Shown here: positions 12,442 to 19,286 of the stretch, one piece after another
Layout of the letters: each line of letters begins with the position of its first letter
Numbering within the stretch: position 1 is the first letter of the stretch
NCBI GenBank assembly: GCA_009838525.1
Contig: VXRJ01000019.1
Span: 135,932-199,931, forward strand
Direction: 5' to 3'
Length of the DNA stretch: 64,000 nucleotides
From: Acidobacteriota bacterium
GTDB taxonomy: Bacteria > Acidobacteriota > Vicinamibacteria > Vicinamibacterales > UBA8438
Made by a program: the position numbers and the translations under genes
The notes under the pieces: generated by a model
What the model was told of the DNA's origin: nothing
What the model saw: the letters and a program-made list of their open reading frames with translations, nothing else
Databases searched by the model: none

Positions 12442-13299
12442 CTACCGGACATGCAGCGCCGCCGCTGTCGCGATGAGGTAAAGGATACCGACGTAGCCGT
12501 TCAGCTCGAACGCCTGCTTCACCCGCGACAGATCCGAGGCGCTGACGAGTGACTGCTCGTACGCGAGCAGTAGCGCTACCGCCGTCACCCCCAACACGTA
12601 GATCGGCCCGAGCGGCATCAGCCAGGCGAGCGAAGCCAGCGCCGCCACCGTCACCAGGTGGAACAGGCGCGACAGGTGAAGCGCACGCTCGACGCCGAAG
12701 CGCACGGGAATCGAACGGAGTCCCTGCCGCCGATCGAAATCGAGGTCCTCGCAGGCGTAGATCACGTCGAAACCGGCCACCCACGCGCCGGTCGCCAGCG
12801 CCAGCAGCCAGGGCGGCGAGGCGAAGAACTGCCCTCCCGCCGCAAGCCACCCGCCGACCGGTGCGATCGCCAGGGCCAGGCCGAGAAAGAGCTGGGTATA
12901 CGTGGTGTAGCGCTTCGCGAGGGAGTACCAGAAGACAATCAGGAGCGCGAGCGGCGAGAGCGCGAAACACAGCATGCCGAGCGGCCATGTCGAGGCGATG
13001 AACGCCGCCGACGCCACCACGACAATCGCCGCCGCCTCGATGCGGGATACGCGCCCGCGCGGAATCTCGCGGCCCGCCGTCCGCGGATTAAGGGCGTCGA
13101 AACGGGCATCGACCAACCGGTTGAACGCCATCGCGGCGGTCCTGGCCGTGAACATCGCCACGACGATCCAGCCGGCGCGCCGCCACGTCAGCTCGGCCAC
13201 CTGACTCGCCAGCAGAGCGCCGGTCAGCGCGAACGGCAACGCGAACACGGTGTGGCTGAAGCGGACGAACGATCCGTAGGTGAGGAGTCGCGTCAGCAT
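12442..13299 (-). CDS. UbiA-family prenyltransferase, probably menaquinone pathway (MqnP-like)
   Basis: An integral membrane enzyme that attaches a polyprenyl chain to an aromatic acid. It is 285 residues, with about eight hydrophobic segments. Both aspartate-rich motifs are present: NRLVDARFDALNPRTAGREI after the second helix and YACEDLDFDRRQGLRSIP in the middle. Its ATG at 13299 overlaps the deaminase gene by 7 bp. The open frame extending to 14088 is a shadow of that deaminase gene. In this operon the likely substrate is the 1,4-dihydroxy-6-naphthoate intermediate of the futalosine pathway. Confidence 0.9.
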   Translation of the reverse strand: MLTRLLTYGSFVRFSHTVFALPFALTGALLASQVAELTWRRAGWIVVAMFTARTAAMAFNRLVDARFDALNPRTAGREIPRGRVSRIEAAAIVVVASAAFIASTWPLGMLCFALSPLALLIVFWYSLAKRYTTYTQLFLGLALAIAPVGGWLAAGGQFFASPPWLLALATGAWVAGFDVIYACEDLDFDRRQGLRSIPVRFGVERALHLSRLFHLVTVAALASLAWLMPLGPIYVLGVTAVALLLAYEQSLVSASDLSRVKQAFELNGYVGILYLIATAAALHVR

Positions 13300-14531
13300 C
13301 GGTGCGCCTCGACCCAGGCTATCTGCTCCGGCTCGATCCCGCCCACCAGGTATTGTTCCACATCGTCCAGGGAACCGGGCAGAGCGACCGCCACGAGGGC
13401 TGCGCGCCGGCCCGGCGCGATGGCCCCCAGGGTCTCTCCCCGCCCGAGGGCGGCCGCGCCGTGGAGCGTTGCGCTCCGGAGCAGGCGCGATGCCGGGACC
13501 GCCGGCGCCAGTCGATGCAGCGCAGCCAGTTCGGAAAAGAGGTTGAGGTCGGGCGCGCTTGCGAGACTGTCGGTTCCGACCGCGACCCGGACACCGGAAG
13601 CGTAGAAGTCGGCGACCGGCGGCTCGCCGGCCCCGGTCCACCGGTTGCTCCGCGGGCAGGTGACCAGCGTCGTCCCCGCCGCCGCGAGCCGCTTCAGATC
13701 GTCCGGACGAAGCTGCACGCCATGCACGACCAGCGTGTCGTCGCGCAACCATCCGAGCATCTCGAGATAGTCGACGGGACCCGTTCCCGGCGGCTCCCAC
13801 GCCGCGTTCCAGCGGCCGCGCCACTGAAGGAACTCGCGCCACGGCCCGTGGCCGTCGCGCAGGAAGTCGATCTCCTCCCGTGATTCGGCCAGATGCACCG
13901 TGCGCGGGCCGGGGAGTCGAGCCACCAGGGCCCGGAAGAGCGCCGGCGAAACCGAATACGGAGCATGCGCCGCGCCGCGCAGTATCAGACGGTCGCCGCC
14001 GGCGCCCGCCGCACGCCCGGCAATCTCGTCGGCCAGACGACCGGCCCTCGCCTCCGCTTCTTCCGGTCCCACCTCGAAGCCCAGACACTCCTGGAAGAGC
14101 ACCGCGTCGACCCGTCCCGACGCGAGCCCGGGCAGCGCCGCCTGCGTGTTGCCGATATCGCCCACGAGGACGGTGCCGCAGGCGTGCAATTGCGCCACGG
14201 CGTCGGGTATCGCTTCCGCGGGCAGGCCGCCATCGGCGTCGACCCGTTGAACGAGGGCGCGCGCCCAGGCCGGCATCGAGTCCGCCGGCGGGGAAGCGTC
14301 GTCAAGTCCCGACAGCTCCAGGTGGGTGTGCGCGTTCACCAGCCCGGGCAGCAGGGCGACGTCGCCCAGGTCGATCTCCTCGGCCAGCGGATCGGCGGGG
14401 TGAACGGCGGCCGCCCCCCCGACGGCGTGGACTGCGTCGCCGAAGACGTCCACCCAGCCGTCCCGGACCGGCGGCGCGACGATTGGCAGGATCCAGCGGG
14501 CGCGGTAGCGGACCTTCCGCCCCGCGCTCAT
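13293..14531 (-). CDS. Amidohydrolase, probable aminodeoxyfutalosine deaminase (MqnF/MqnX-like)
   Basis: A 412-residue metal-dependent amidohydrolase. Metal ligands are visible in GLVNAHTHLELSGL, in VHLAESREE (third His region), in LVVHGVQL and in VGTDSLASAPDLNLFSEL. These match deaminases of the TRZ/ATZ and SsnA type. It overlaps mqnC by 4 bp and the prenyltransferase by 7 bp, in a futalosine operon that otherwise lacks a deaminase. Conversion of 6-amino-6-deoxyfutalosine to futalosine is therefore the likely reaction. The assignment rests on context more than on substrate-specific residues. Confidence 0.78.
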   Translation of the reverse strand: MSAGRKVRYRARWILPIVAPPVRDGWVDVFGDAVHAVGGAAAVHPADPLAEEIDLGDVALLPGLVNAHTHLELSGLDDASPPADSMPAWARALVQRVDADGGLPAEAIPDAVAQLHACGTVLVGDIGNTQAALPGLASGRVDAVLFQECLGFEVGPEEAEARAGRLADEIAGRAAGAGGDRLILRGAAHAPYSVSPALFRALVARLPGPRTVHLAESREEIDFLRDGHGPWREFLQWRGRWNAAWEPPGTGPVDYLEMLGWLRDDTLVVHGVQLRPDDLKRLAAAGTTLVTCPRSNRWTGAGEPPVADFYASGVRVAVGTDSLASAPDLNLFSELAALHRLAPAVPASRLLRSATLHGAAALGRGETLGAIAPGRRAALVAVALPGSLDDVEQYLVGGIEPEQIAWVEAHRC

Positions 14532-15775
14532 GGAGCGCCGGCTCGCTGCTGCTTGCCGCCGCGGCTGCGCGCCTCGTAGCCGCTCAGCTCCACCGGCACG
14601 GAGTCGTCACCGGGTGCGCGCGCCGTCGCCAGCTCCGTCATGCGCGGCACCGCCTGCTCGCGAAAGAACGGATCGCCCAGCACGGCGTACTCCATGTCCC
14701 GACGCTTCGGCACGAAGCCGGCATTCTCGATGTTCCGGACGATTTCCACCTCGTCCATGCAGTAGGCGGCGCCGGCGGCCCGGACGACGTTCTCCTCGAT
14801 CATCACGCTGCCCATGTCGTTGGCGCCGTAGGCGAGACTCAACTGCCCGACCTTCCCGCCCTGCGTCACCCAGGAAGCCTGCAGGTTGTCGACGTTGTCG
14901 AGGACGAGGCGGGCGAGCGCCAGGGTGCGGAGATACTCCACGCAGGTAGCGGGATCGATCCGGCGAGCGCTCGCCAGCTCCGTGTGATCCGGCTGAAAGC
15001 TCCAGGTGATGAACGCGGTAAAGCCGCCCGTCTCGTCCTGCAGCTCCCGGATCCGAAGGAGGTGCTCTATCCGTTCTTCGAGCGTCTCGACCGTGCCGTA
15101 CATCATCGTCGCGGTCGTCCGGAGTCCGGCGCGATGGGCGGCCCGCATCACGGCGATCCACTCATCGGCGGTCGCCTTGCCGTCGCAGTGAAGCAACCTC
15201 CGGACCCGGTCGACCAGGATTTCGGCGCCGCCGCCGGGAATGCTGTCGAGACCGGCGGAGACCAGCCGGTCGATCACGCGCGGCACCGGCAGGTTCGACA
15301 ACCGCGACAGGTGGATTACCTCGGGCGGCGAGAGCGCGTGCAGGCGGAAGCGGGGGTACCGGTCCTTGATCGCCCGGAAGAGATCCTCGTACCAGTCGAG
15401 GGGCAGGTCGGGGTTGTGTCCCCCCTGCAGCAGCAGTTGCACGCCGCCGACGGCAATCGTCTCGTCGATCTTGGCGAAGATCTCGTCGAACCCCAGGACG
15501 TAACCGTCGGCCGCGCCGACGTTGCGATAGAACGCGCAGAAGTTGCAGCGCGCGACACAGACGTTCGTGTAGTTGACGTTCCGGTCGATGATGTAGGTGA
15601 CGATGCCGTCGGGGTGGCGGCCGGCACGCACCCGGTCGGCCAACGCACCCAGCTCGTGCGTCGGCAGCGCCCGGTAGAGGGACAGGGCCTCGGCGGCGCC
15701 GATTCGCCCGCCGTCGAGCAGCCGCGCCGCGGCCCGGGCGGCCGCCGCGCGATCCGCTGCCGCGACCCCCGTCAT
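14528..15775 (-). CDS. mqnC: Cyclic dehypoxanthinyl futalosine synthase (radical SAM)
   Basis: Radical SAM enzyme that cyclises dehypoxanthine futalosine in menaquinone synthesis. It is 415 residues. The NYTNVCVARCNFCAFYRN stretch near residue 75 contains the CxxxCxxC cluster motif in the MqnC form, followed by LLLQGGHNPDLPLDWYEDLF. The C-terminal half has ASWVTQGGKVGQLSLAYGAN and DMGSVMIEENVV, which separate MqnC from MqnE. It overlaps mqnA upstream and the deaminase gene downstream by 4 bp each. Confidence 0.95.
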   Translation of the reverse strand: MTGVAAADRAAAARAAARLLDGGRIGAAEALSLYRALPTHELGALADRVRAGRHPDGIVTYIIDRNVNYTNVCVARCNFCAFYRNVGAADGYVLGFDEIFAKIDETIAVGGVQLLLQGGHNPDLPLDWYEDLFRAIKDRYPRFRLHALSPPEVIHLSRLSNLPVPRVIDRLVSAGLDSIPGGGAEILVDRVRRLLHCDGKATADEWIAVMRAAHRAGLRTTATMMYGTVETLEERIEHLLRIRELQDETGGFTAFITWSFQPDHTELASARRIDPATCVEYLRTLALARLVLDNVDNLQASWVTQGGKVGQLSLAYGANDMGSVMIEENVVRAAGAAYCMDEVEIVRNIENAGFVPKRRDMEYAVLGDPFFREQAVPRMTELATARAPGDDSVPVELSGYEARSRGGKQQRAGAP

Positions 15776-16572
15776 GATTCGAAATACCGAACGGCGTGGG
15801 TCTCCGGCACGAGGTCCAGATCAACCGCTTCCGCATAGAAGCGTTTCAAGCCGGCGCGACCCTCCTCGTTCATCGCGAACTGCACGTTCTCCTGGAGATA
15901 GGCGCGCGCGATCTCCGCCTGCTCCTCGTCCTTCGGCCCGTGCGCCGAGGCTATCTCGTCAAGCGCCGCCAACCCTGCCGCGCGCGCCTCGCGCAGGGCG
16001 TCGATGTGGGCCGGCGTCACGACATCGGGCCGCCCGGCCCAGAACGCCCAGATGAACGGCAGGTTGGCCAGCGCCATCCACTCTTCCCCCAGGTCGATCT
16101 TGTCCAGATCGACCACCGTCTCGTGCTCGGTGAAGAGGGCGACGTCGCCGATCAGCAGCGCCGCGTCGCAACGCTTGAGCATCGTCGGCAGGTCGGGAGG
16201 CATCGCATGCAGTTGCGGCTCGATGTCGAACGACTGCGCGCAGAGGATACGAAGCAGCGCCGCCGCCGTGCGTGAGCTGGCGTCGACCGCGATCGAGCGG
16301 ACGGCGGTCGGCGGCCGCGTGGTGAAGAGCGCTACCGACGCCACCGGCCCGTCCGAGGCGACGGCGATGTCGGGAACCACGCGGTAGTGGGTTCCGCGGA
16401 GATACTCGATGGACGGAATCAGCGCGAGATCGATCCTGCCGCTGTGCAGCAGCGAGGCCACGCGAGCGGGCACGTCGTACTGAATCGAGAACAGGTCGGA
16501 GCGCGCCTCGAGGCCATGCACCAGCGGACGGGCGTTCAGGTATTCGACGGCGCCAAGGCGAATCACACTCAT
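15772..16572 (-). CDS. mqnA: Chorismate dehydratase
   Basis: Dehydrates chorismate to 3-[(1-carboxyvinyl)oxy]benzoate, the entry step of the futalosine pathway. It is 266 residues, with the family signatures IRLGAVEYLNARPLVHGL at the start, DLALIPSIEYLR, and CDAALLIGDVAL in the middle, followed by DLGEEWMALANLPFIWAFWAG. The ATG at 16572 overlaps the stop of the upstream MqnE-like gene. Downstream it overlaps mqnC. The open frame above 16572 is a shadow. Confidence 0.93.
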   Translation of the reverse strand: MSVIRLGAVEYLNARPLVHGLEARSDLFSIQYDVPARVASLLHSGRIDLALIPSIEYLRGTHYRVVPDIAVASDGPVASVALFTTRPPTAVRSIAVDASSRTAAALLRILCAQSFDIEPQLHAMPPDLPTMLKRCDAALLIGDVALFTEHETVVDLDKIDLGEEWMALANLPFIWAFWAGRPDVVTPAHIDALREARAAGLAALDEIASAHGPKDEEQAEIARAYLQENVQFAMNEEGRAGLKRFYAEAVDLDLVPETHAVRYFES

Positions 16573-17468
16573 TTGTCGTCTGTCGCAAGCGCTACGAAGC
16601 ACCCGTCGCGTTCGACCGGGTCGAGCCCTGCCGCCCGAATCTGTCGCCGGATCTCGACCACCGGCATCCGCCTCGCGCCCTCCGCCGGGTCGTCGATGGG
16701 AGAGACGCCGTCGACATCGTCCGCGCCGAAAGCCAAAGCCACCTGCGCCAATTGCGGGCCGTACAGCCGCCAGTCCACCTGAATCGAATCGATATTGTCG
16801 ACCAGCAGCCGCGAGAACGCAACCTGACGGACATCCTCGTATCCGGTGGTCGGCTTCGCCGTCAGCCGCCGGGGCAGCGGCGCGAAAGCCTGCGCCGGTG
16901 CGCCTCCTCCCCATTCCGCGACCCGGCGGATGAGAGCGATGCCGGAGGCGGCCGGATCGTGCACCGTCAGACGGGCGATCGGCAGGCCGGCGTCTCGCGC
17001 CCGGCCGATCCAGTCAGGACGGTCGGTCCGTTCCACCACGGCCTCCGAAATGGCGGCCAGGCCGGCGCCGCCCAGGGCGGCGGCGAAGCGGTCGAAGCGG
17101 AGGGTATCGCCGCCGCAGCAGTCGACGAGGTTATCGAGAGCAAAGCCGGTCACCGGCGTCCGGCCGGCCGCCGCGACGGTTCGTTCCACTCCCGCCAACG
17201 CCGCCGACTCGGTCTCGGGACGCCCGGCGAGGCGGATCTCCCCCGCCCCGGATGCCGCGGCGCCGAGGTCCGGATCCGTCAGGGAGACCTCCAGCACGCG
17301 GACGTAGGTCACCCGGTCGCCCCGGCGCGCTCGCCGGCGCTCGTCGGCCAGCGCGCCGAGCCGGACGACATCGCGCGTATCGGCCAGCGCGCCGATTTCG
17401 TCCGCCGTCAGCGATTCGCCCGCCACGACCCGATCGCTCAGCGCGTCGAACAGCGCCGCGTCGGTCAT
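16569..17468 (-). CDS. MqnE-like protein lacking the radical SAM cluster motif
   Basis: A 299-residue protein resembling aminofutalosine synthase MqnE at both ends. The N-terminus (LSDRVVAGESLTADEIGALA, then GDRVTYVRVLEVSLT) aligns by eye with the region leading into the MqnE cluster. The C-terminal 110 residues (KPTTGYEDVRQVAFSRLLV, DNIDSIQVDWRLYGPQLAQ, ALAFGADDVDGV, EIRRQIRAAGLDPVERD) match the MqnE/MqnC C-terminal domain. No CxxxCxxC exists anywhere; cysteines occur only as one CC pair and one single near the end. It is shorter than MqnE (about 370-400). It overlaps mqnA and the Gfo/Idh gene by 4 bp each, so it is kept in the operon. Function unknown. Confidence 0.75.
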   Translation of the reverse strand: MTDAALFDALSDRVVAGESLTADEIGALADTRDVVRLGALADERRRARRGDRVTYVRVLEVSLTDPDLGAAASGAGEIRLAGRPETESAALAGVERTVAAAGRTPVTGFALDNLVDCCGGDTLRFDRFAAALGGAGLAAISEAVVERTDRPDWIGRARDAGLPIARLTVHDPAASGIALIRRVAEWGGGAPAQAFAPLPRRLTAKPTTGYEDVRQVAFSRLLVDNIDSIQVDWRLYGPQLAQVALAFGADDVDGVSPIDDPAEGARRMPVVEIRRQIRAAGLDPVERDGCFVALATDDK

Positions 17469-18433
17469 GCGCGCACACCCACGGACACGGTGGCCGAACC
17501 GGCCCGTAGCGCCTCGGCAATCCGTTGCGCCACGGCGAGGGCGCGGCGTCCGTCGGCGCCGGTCACGCCCGGCGCCTCTCCGGTTCGCGCCGAGCGGACG
17601 AAGTCGGTCAGCTCCCGCTCCAGCGGTTCGGCATCCGGAAAGTCGACGTGGCGGACCTTGATCGCCGGGTCGCCGTCCGCCGGACGAGACACGGTGACCG
17701 CTTCCACCTGCCGCTCCGCGTAGTCGACGGAAACCAGGGCATGCGGCTGGAAGACCCGGAGCTTTCGAACCCGATCGCGGCTGATCCGGCTCGCGGTCAT
17801 ATTCGCGATACACCCGTCCGGGAAACGGAGCCGGACGTTCGCGATATCGATCCTGCTGCTCAGCACCGGCACCCCGACGGCCTCGATGGACGCCGGTTCT
17901 TCGCCGACCATCGCCAGCGCGATGTCGATGTCGTGGATCATCAGATCGAGAATCACGTCGACATCGAGGCTGCGGGGCTGGAACACCGACAGGCGGTGGA
18001 CTTCGATGAAGCGCGGGGCCGAGATATGGGGAAGTGCCGCGGCGACGGCCGGGTTGTGCCGTTCGGTGTGCCCGACGGCCAGCGTCGCGCCCGAGAGCCG
18101 GGCCGCGTCCAGCAACCGGTCCGCTTCCGCGAGCGAGGCGGCGATGGGTTTCTCGACCAGCACCGCGACACCCGACTCGAGCAGCGGCGCCGCAACCGCG
18201 CAATGGTCCGCCGTCGGGACCGCGACCACGCAACCGTCGACCGGTGGCTCTATCGCGCGAACATCGTCGACCACCGGCGCGCCGACGTCCGCGGCGACGG
18301 CGCGGGCGCGCGCCTGATCGACATCGACGATGCCCACGAGCTCCACGTCCGGCAGCGCGGCGAGGATCCGCGCGTGGTTCCGCCCAATGGAACCGACCCC
18401 GACGACCGCGGCGCGGAAAGCCCTGTCAGCCAT
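17465..18433 (-). CDS. Gfo/Idh/MocA family NAD(P)-dependent oxidoreductase
   Basis: A 322-residue oxidoreductase with a Rossmann start (AAVVGVGSIGRNHARILAAL), the EKPIA lysine-proline motif (VEKPIAASLAEADRLL near residue 93) and the MIHDIDIALAMVG segment carrying the probable catalytic His. The ATG at 18433 is preferred over the longer open frame because it follows lpxI by 4 bp. Position between lipid A and menaquinone genes is suggestive. Members of this family such as GnnA oxidise UDP-GlcNAc for amide-linked lipid A, but the partner aminotransferase GnnB is not present here. Substrate unknown. Confidence 0.85.
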   Translation of the reverse strand: MADRAFRAAVVGVGSIGRNHARILAALPDVELVGIVDVDQARARAVAADVGAPVVDDVRAIEPPVDGCVVAVPTADHCAVAAPLLESGVAVLVEKPIAASLAEADRLLDAARLSGATLAVGHTERHNPAVAAALPHISAPRFIEVHRLSVFQPRSLDVDVILDLMIHDIDIALAMVGEEPASIEAVGVPVLSSRIDIANVRLRFPDGCIANMTASRISRDRVRKLRVFQPHALVSVDYAERQVEAVTVSRPADGDPAIKVRHVDFPDAEPLERELTDFVRSARTGEAPGVTGADGRRALAVAQRIAEALRAGSATVSVGVRA

Positions 18434-18437
18434 CCCT

Positions 18438-19286
18438 TCACTCGGAACCCGCCGCCGCGGGCCGGTCGGCCTGCGGCCGCCCGACGATGGCGATGCCGGC
18501 GTCGTCGGCCGCCTCGAACACGCGGTCGCCGTCAATCACCAGCGTCCGGCCCGCATCGACCGACAGGACCCCCATGCCCGCCGCACGCATCGCCTCGACC
18601 GTCGACACCCCGACCACCGGCACGTCGAACCGCATGTCCTGATTGGGCTTCGCTACTTTGACGACGGTGGCGCCGGGACCGGCGAGACGGCCGGCGCGCG
18701 CGATCACGGCGTCGGTCCCCTCCATTGCCTCGACCGCCACGACGGCCCGGTCCTTGACGACGATCGTCTGGCCGATGTCCAACCCCGCGATGGCGTCGGC
18801 CATCCGGTAGCCGAACGCGAGGTCGGAGCGCTCGTCGGCGGTGGGCGACCGCACGGTCAGCGTGCCGTCGCCGGCAAGCAGCGGCGCGAGAAAGAGGGTC
18901 GAGTCGACCAGCTCGATGCCATGCTCCTCCAGAACGCCAGCCACCGCTGAGATCAGCGCATCGGTATTCTGCGCCCGGAGCCGGCGCAACACGGACAGCA
19001 GGGTGAGATCGGGCACGACGCCCGAGAAGAGCTTCGTGTGCTTCACCTGCCCCGCCATCAACGCACGGGTGACCCCCGCTTCCTTCAGGATCCGGATGCA
19101 GCGGCCCAACTGGCCCAGGGACACCCAGTGGAAGGCGGCCGGCTGCCGGTCGGCGGCGGCCGCTTCGAGGTCGGGGCTGGTTTCTTCACGAATGGCGACG
19201 ACGGTTACGTCGTGCCCCAGGCTGCGCGCCGCGTCGAGCGCCAGAAAGGGAAACCGGCCGTTACCGGCAATCAGGCCGATCCGCAT
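18438..19286 (-). CDS. lpxI: UDP-2,3-diacylglucosamine diphosphatase LpxI
   Basis: Hydrolyses UDP-2,3-diacylglucosamine to lipid X during lipid A synthesis; LpxI replaces LpxH in many bacteria. It is 282 residues. The start ([20 protein letters not shown]) and [36 protein letters not shown] and [19 protein letters not shown] are the family hallmarks. It lies 17 bp after the fabZ-lpxA fusion. It is strong evidence for an outer membrane with lipid A. Confidence 0.93.

Follow-up and report, generated by a model that had tools for sequence, protein, structure and literature searches.

Introduction

The futalosine pathway of menaquinone synthesis is a drug target in some pathogens. Among described proteins, the closest by both profile and fold to the one analysed here is the aminofutalosine synthase of that pathway, MqnE (TIGR03700; PDB 6xi9 and 6xig), and the superfamily also holds MqnC (cyclic dehypoxanthinyl futalosine synthase, TIGR03699) and CofH, our second and third profile matches. 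Operons of the mqnEAC type have been described in Pelotomaculum and Syntrophomonas, among others (PMC4746308).

In the 64-kb stretch of DNA that we analysed (the window), the gene directly upstream of mqnA encodes a paralog of MqnE devoid of the cysteine motif of the Fe-S site. We coined the name MqnEL for the conserved Cys-less MqnE-related family to which it belongs. Our preferred reading, to which we assign a probability of roughly 0.55, sees MqnEL as a radical-SAM pseudoenzyme that has been retained in the futalosine pathway as a non-catalytic component or partner.

Results

The mqnEL gene and its neighbours

The mqnEL frame (16569..17468, minus strand), assigned from the ORF, profiles, alignment and predicted fold, is open throughout from ATG to TGA and encodes 299 amino acids. 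The 4-bp overlaps with mqnA and the Gfo/Idh gene reported in the preliminary description of this DNA were seen as ATGA at both junctions: the mqnEL stop shares 4 bp with the start of mqnA downstream (PF02621; 15772..16572, minus strand), and on the upstream side mqnEL overlaps by the same length a gene for a Gfo/Idh oxidoreductase that resembles UDP-GlcNAc 3-dehydrogenase at a score below the cut-off (17465..18433, minus strand). Further downstream lie mqnC (14528..15775, minus strand), which has the canonical CxxxCxxC, scores 486 bits with TIGR03699 and carries a conserved C-terminal tail specific to the order, and a mqnX-like gene (13293..14531, minus strand) for a hydrolase of the aminofutalosine deaminase family (PRK08418, E 2e-36, below its cut-off). 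On the other side, an lpxI-like gene (18438..19286, minus strand) matched its profile below the cut-off; the Gfo/Idh gene is probably part of the upstream lpx genes.

Homology to MqnE and loss of the Fe-S site

MqnEL contains three cysteines in total and, as had been noticed from the sequence, no CxxxCxxC; a motif scan found it in none of 52 MqnEL orthologs and in 27/27 MqnE proteins. The orthologs have 0–4 cysteines each, and no cysteine position is conserved. A frameshift or an assembly error hiding the cysteines was ruled out, because dozens of genomes carry intact Cys-less orthologs.

The sole Pfam match of MqnEL was CofH_C (PF19288; residues 203–289, E 2e-9, 37.7 bits vs a gathering threshold of 27). 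Radical_SAM (PF04055) gave no match in MqnEL and did match the MqnC and MqnE of the same genome. With NCBIfam the first match was TIGR03700 (MqnE; E 5e-23, 81.6 bits vs an equivalog cut-off of 434.55), followed by MqnC and CofH, and residues 58–200 searched alone matched no model. The hhalign scores followed the same order (MqnE 217, MqnC 192, CofH 130), and the profile-profile comparison with MqnE gave 99.8% over 300 columns, the full length of the protein. By alignment, MqnEL is homologous to all three families, with MqnE the best, rather than similar only to an unrelated one. The initial claim that both ends resemble aminofutalosine synthase was right about the MqnE homology but understated it, because the profile-profile similarity covers the whole protein.

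MqnEL is ~70 amino acids shorter than the MqnE of its own genome (299 vs 369), mostly through deletion of the cysteine loop with the next helix and of the loop after strand 4. MqnE and MqnC share 63 invariant positions; MqnEL keeps 16 of these, the majority located in its N-terminal helix and C-terminal core (A, R, N, W, Q, L, G and D). When aligned to MqnE and MqnC it lacks the Cys loop and the TN, HP, PGGGAE, MYG and EE positions; these are presumably the motifs that carry the cluster and SAM in radical SAM enzymes, and MqnEL is predicted to bind neither. Lacking a cluster, it would not be expected to convert SAM and 3-enolpyruvylbenzoate into aminofutalosine. Since it falls under the cut-off and lacks CxxxCxxC, the defining features that we tested, MqnEL is not, judged by its sequence, a member of the MqnE family.

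Predicted structure and family-specific residues

An AlphaFold (AF2) model of MqnEL, built with 74 orthologs, showed a complete alpha/beta barrel (pLDDT 95, pTM 0.92). The barrel had been described as about 80 residues short; the protein is indeed shortened relative to its own MqnE, as given above, but the modelled barrel is whole. The top PDB matches of the model in Foldseek were the MqnE structures 6xig and 6xi9 (TM 0.77 by query length), and on this model MqnEL has the MqnE fold. Such a fold, together with the non-standard motifs of some radical-SAM-like enzymes and the CX5CX2C variants of MqnE that exist in the phylum, could speak for an active, divergent radical SAM enzyme whose cluster is held by other residues. 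We find this scarcely credible, as the entire Cys loop and the next helix are deleted, the few cysteines of the orthologs are not conserved and the other catalytic-face motifs are gone.

Sixteen positions are invariant across the 74 MqnEL orthologs, and the near-invariant residues specific to the family are E77, R79, T208-G209-Y210-D212, Q230-V231-D232-W233 and R266-R267. These are the basis of the main rival to a pseudoenzyme partner, in which a neo-functionalised MqnEL would bind a pathway compound (3-enolpyruvylbenzoate, aminofutalosine or a by-product) in its barrel and carry out a non-radical reaction via the newly fixed residues. Near-invariant polar residues within an otherwise fast-evolving protein and a complete barrel modelled with high confidence favour a new enzyme, and the charged residues (E77, R79, D212, D232, R266 and R267) would fit either a new enzyme or a new ligand. 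We nevertheless regard a new enzyme as possible but unlikely: each known pathway step already has an enzyme in the source genome, there is no likeness to non-radical enzymes beyond the common barrel fold, and the existence of Cys-less forms derived from both MqnC and MqnE (see below) is better explained by a common non-catalytic cause than by a single new reaction.

The futalosine pathway in the source genome

The source genome (4.29 Mb in 38 contigs, 97% complete) encodes on another contig (G000:C31:36223-37272) a canonical MqnE with CxxxCxxC that scores 484 bits, above the curated cut-off. MqnC (486 bits), MqnA and the MqnX-like deaminase are encoded in the window, and contig C32 encodes MqnD and an adjacent PF01048 protein that we took as MqnB; MqnA, B, C, D, E and X were all found. 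The preliminary description had warned of an unexplained pathway step should no normal MqnE exist in the genome. There is no such step, because the canonical enzyme is encoded on C31, and a missing MqnE step was ruled out. A role for MqnEL as a stand-in for an absent MqnB or MqnD was likewise discarded, both being encoded on C32. A canonical MqnE over the cut-off was present in 53/60 relatives, and the catalytic MqnE of the order is encoded away from the mqnEL-mqnA operon.

Two further observations concern the source genome. A transposase-like ORF, recognised by eye from its sequence (L001:658-1461), adjoins the canonical mqnE, and a fused CofG-CofH-like protein of F420 biosynthesis (G000:C3:14790-17084; L003, L005) was restricted, among the relatives listed, to its own family.

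Distribution of MqnEL

Cys-less orthologs of ~260–320 amino acids, mostly 39–60% identical, were present in most of the 60 relatives. A scan of 84,980 species returned 122 relatives, and the best 80 of these 122 came nearly all from Acidobacteria/Vicinamibacteria MAGs. A few MqnEL records carry the names Bifidobacterium, Acidimicrobiia and Woeseiaceae; they are probably mislabelled, because their operon is the same. When 396 genomes were drawn from the phylum, strong full-length matches were confined to Vicinamibacterales (40/42 genomes), the order to which the window belongs. MqnEL is nearly universal in this order of soil and marine bacteria.

Two genomes were considered as bearers of the pathway without MqnEL and set aside: in G266 the contig stops inside mqnA, and G326 is uninformative, as it lacks mqnC along with mqnEL and has a single MqnA/MqnD-family protein, encoded beside mqnE. 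Four Vicinamibacterales (G037, G047, G057 and G053) are without the whole futalosine pathway, and MqnA, MqnC, MqnD, MqnE and MqnEL are all absent from them. Among the genomes examined, none had retained MqnEL after the loss of mqnA and mqnC.

Operon position and origin

In all 79 loci in which mqnA was visible, mqnEL lay directly upstream of it, which confirms that relatives also carry the cysteine-less form beside mqnA; mqnC came next after mqnA wherever the contig was long enough. The two genes overlapped or were separated by at most 20 bp in 67/79 loci (median −4 bp). Upstream of mqnEL, lpxA, lpxI and Gfo were found in most loci, an arrangement that would suit a protein that had left menaquinone synthesis, e.g., for regulation or for lipid A together with lpx and Gfo, and that now shares only the transcript. 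This is very improbable: adjacency to mqnA is invariant, the distance between mqnEL and Gfo ranges across loci from overlap to ~5 kb, therefore the lasting link of mqnEL is to mqnA, and genomes without the futalosine pathway have no MqnEL.

At loci L205, L206 and L207, from a sister order within the class, a canonical mqnE with CxxxCxxC is followed immediately by mqnA and then mqnC. Because canonical mqnE occupies the same slot there, MqnEL is most likely the former operonic MqnE, which lost its cluster, with another MqnE doing the chemistry. The tree recovered MqnEL as a single, fully supported clade whose long branch lies between MqnE and MqnC. The AU test rejected neither a grouping of MqnEL with the operonic MqnE of the sister order (p 0.17) nor a shared ancestry for the class's two MqnE groups (p 0.275); on the latter value, the test was undecided about a replacement of the original MqnE of Vicinamibacterales by horizontal transfer. 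Since the AU tests leave the sister group unsettled, it is from synteny that we infer direct descent of MqnEL from the operonic MqnE.

Selection and co-evolution

Between close pairs, the dN/dS of MqnEL was 0.09–0.34, roughly twice that of the MqnA and MqnC of the same genomes. At these values MqnEL is under purifying selection and not decaying. The higher ratio and the long branches, as well as the stop-start overlap with mqnA directly downstream, would also be expected of a fading relic of operonic mqnE, kept mainly since, with translation of the two genes coupled, its loss would be polar on mqnA. We consider this improbable, because polarity would keep the frame open and not specific residues such as the 16 invariant positions, because the dN/dS values are low and nearly all of dozens of genomes are free of stops and frameshifts, and because the protein is intact in the 12/79 loci where a gap of more than 20 bp separates mqnEL from mqnA. 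The earlier remark that the ORF is not debris is upheld by this selection, by the order-wide conservation and by its place in the mqnE slot of the sister-order operon.

Mirror-tree analysis of 53 loci pointed to MqnA as the partner of MqnEL (partial r 0.46), whereas in 23 genomes it pointed to MqnC (0.70) and not to MqnA; as the two samples name different partners, this approach was discarded as partner evidence. The MqnC of Vicinamibacterales (14528-15775 in the window; MqnC of L037-L116) ends in a conserved C-terminal tail of ~45–55 amino acids, LGDPIFRERDVPRMLELATARAAGDTSVPAELRRYPARSRAGK, which was not seen in the MqnC of the other orders examined and represents a possible docking site.

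Parallel Cys-less forms elsewhere in the phylum

In another class, most genomes of family f24, which is probably Acidobacteriaceae, carry a canonical MqnC of 351 amino acids. Four of its genomes (G164, G397, G444 and G464) have instead a Cys-less MqnC of 266–315 amino acids (L143:9206-10087, L144:1649-2596, L198:6621-7421 and L201:5472-6380) and a second, divergent MqnC-like protein with cysteines, IINYTNVCVAQCDYCAFY; L191, L192, L200 and L202 are further loci of these genomes. The Cys-less MqnC proteins form one clade inside the canonical f24 MqnC (support 98–99, long branches), and a Cys-less MqnE from genome G457 (L203:1136-2068) falls inside the canonical f24 MqnE, also on a long branch. 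This nesting suggests that neither shares its origin with MqnEL. The cluster site appears to have been retired at least two further times in the phylum, in a Cys-less MqnC and in a Cys-less MqnE. No mqnA was found beside these genes in the stretches examined.

G457 is a complete one-contig genome (L203, L209) that encodes MqnA, MqnD, a canonical MqnC and the Cys-less MqnE-like protein, and in which a CofH-family search found no canonical MqnE. It is this genome that truly poses the puzzle, raised earlier for the window, of aminofutalosine without a canonical MqnE. Separately, we observed that in some acidobacterial families (L211, L214, L215) the CX3CX2C of MqnE is replaced by CX5CX2C (NVCVYTYNCKFCSY).

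Discussion

We propose that the MqnE of an ancestral mqnE-mqnA-mqnC operon became MqnEL and would have lost its [4Fe-4S]/SAM site, with a second canonical MqnE encoded elsewhere making aminofutalosine. MqnEL would then have persisted in the pathway in a non-catalytic role, its translation coupled to that of mqnA. It would most likely act as a partner subunit that binds at least one of MqnA, MqnC and MqnE through its barrel and C-terminal core, and this binding may serve activation, stabilisation or substrate hand-off. If MqnEL is such a partner, MqnE and MqnC have an overlooked non-catalytic function and the futalosine pathway involves protein-protein contacts.

A broader and more tentative proposal, which we hold at somewhat less than even odds, is that cluster-free paralogs of the radical SAM enzymes of this pathway arise repeatedly and are required as non-catalytic subunits, with MqnEL fixed across Vicinamibacterales and at least two more in another class. 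In that case a structural second job of MqnE and MqnC, e.g., holding a menaquinone-synthesis complex, would outlive their chemistry; the parallel Cys-less cases are natural replicates. It is unusual for a whole order to keep a radical SAM enzyme that has lost its Fe-S site, and in the literature searched, which took in few subscription papers, no description of such a protein in menaquinone synthesis was found. Domain matches alone should not be used to name such proteins MqnE or MqnC.

MqnEL shares with MqnE the N-terminal helical segment, the C-terminal CofH_C core and, when compared with the sister order, the operon slot, but it differs in the absence of CxxxCxxC, PGGGAE and the other catalytic-face motifs, in its ~70 fewer residues and in its score (81.6 bits vs 434.55). 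From MqnC and CofH it differs in its missing catalytic elements, and the operon has a canonical mqnC of its own, two genes downstream of mqnEL. The Cys-less MqnC and MqnE of f24 (L143, L144, L198, L201, L203) resemble MqnEL in that the Cys loop and PGGGAE region have decayed, to a variable degree, with the C-terminal core largely kept; unlike MqnEL, they have independent origins and are patchy rather than order-wide.

Outside this superfamily, HisZ, which works with a short HisG, and the AdoMetDC prozyme of trypanosomes are dead paralogs kept in the metabolism of the same cell. Neither is a radical SAM protein. By analogy, MqnEL would likewise be a catalytically dead, retained paralog of a biosynthetic enzyme, under purifying selection despite the loss of its catalytic residues, and in these terms it can be described as a putative HisZ-like, enzyme-derived regulatory subunit.
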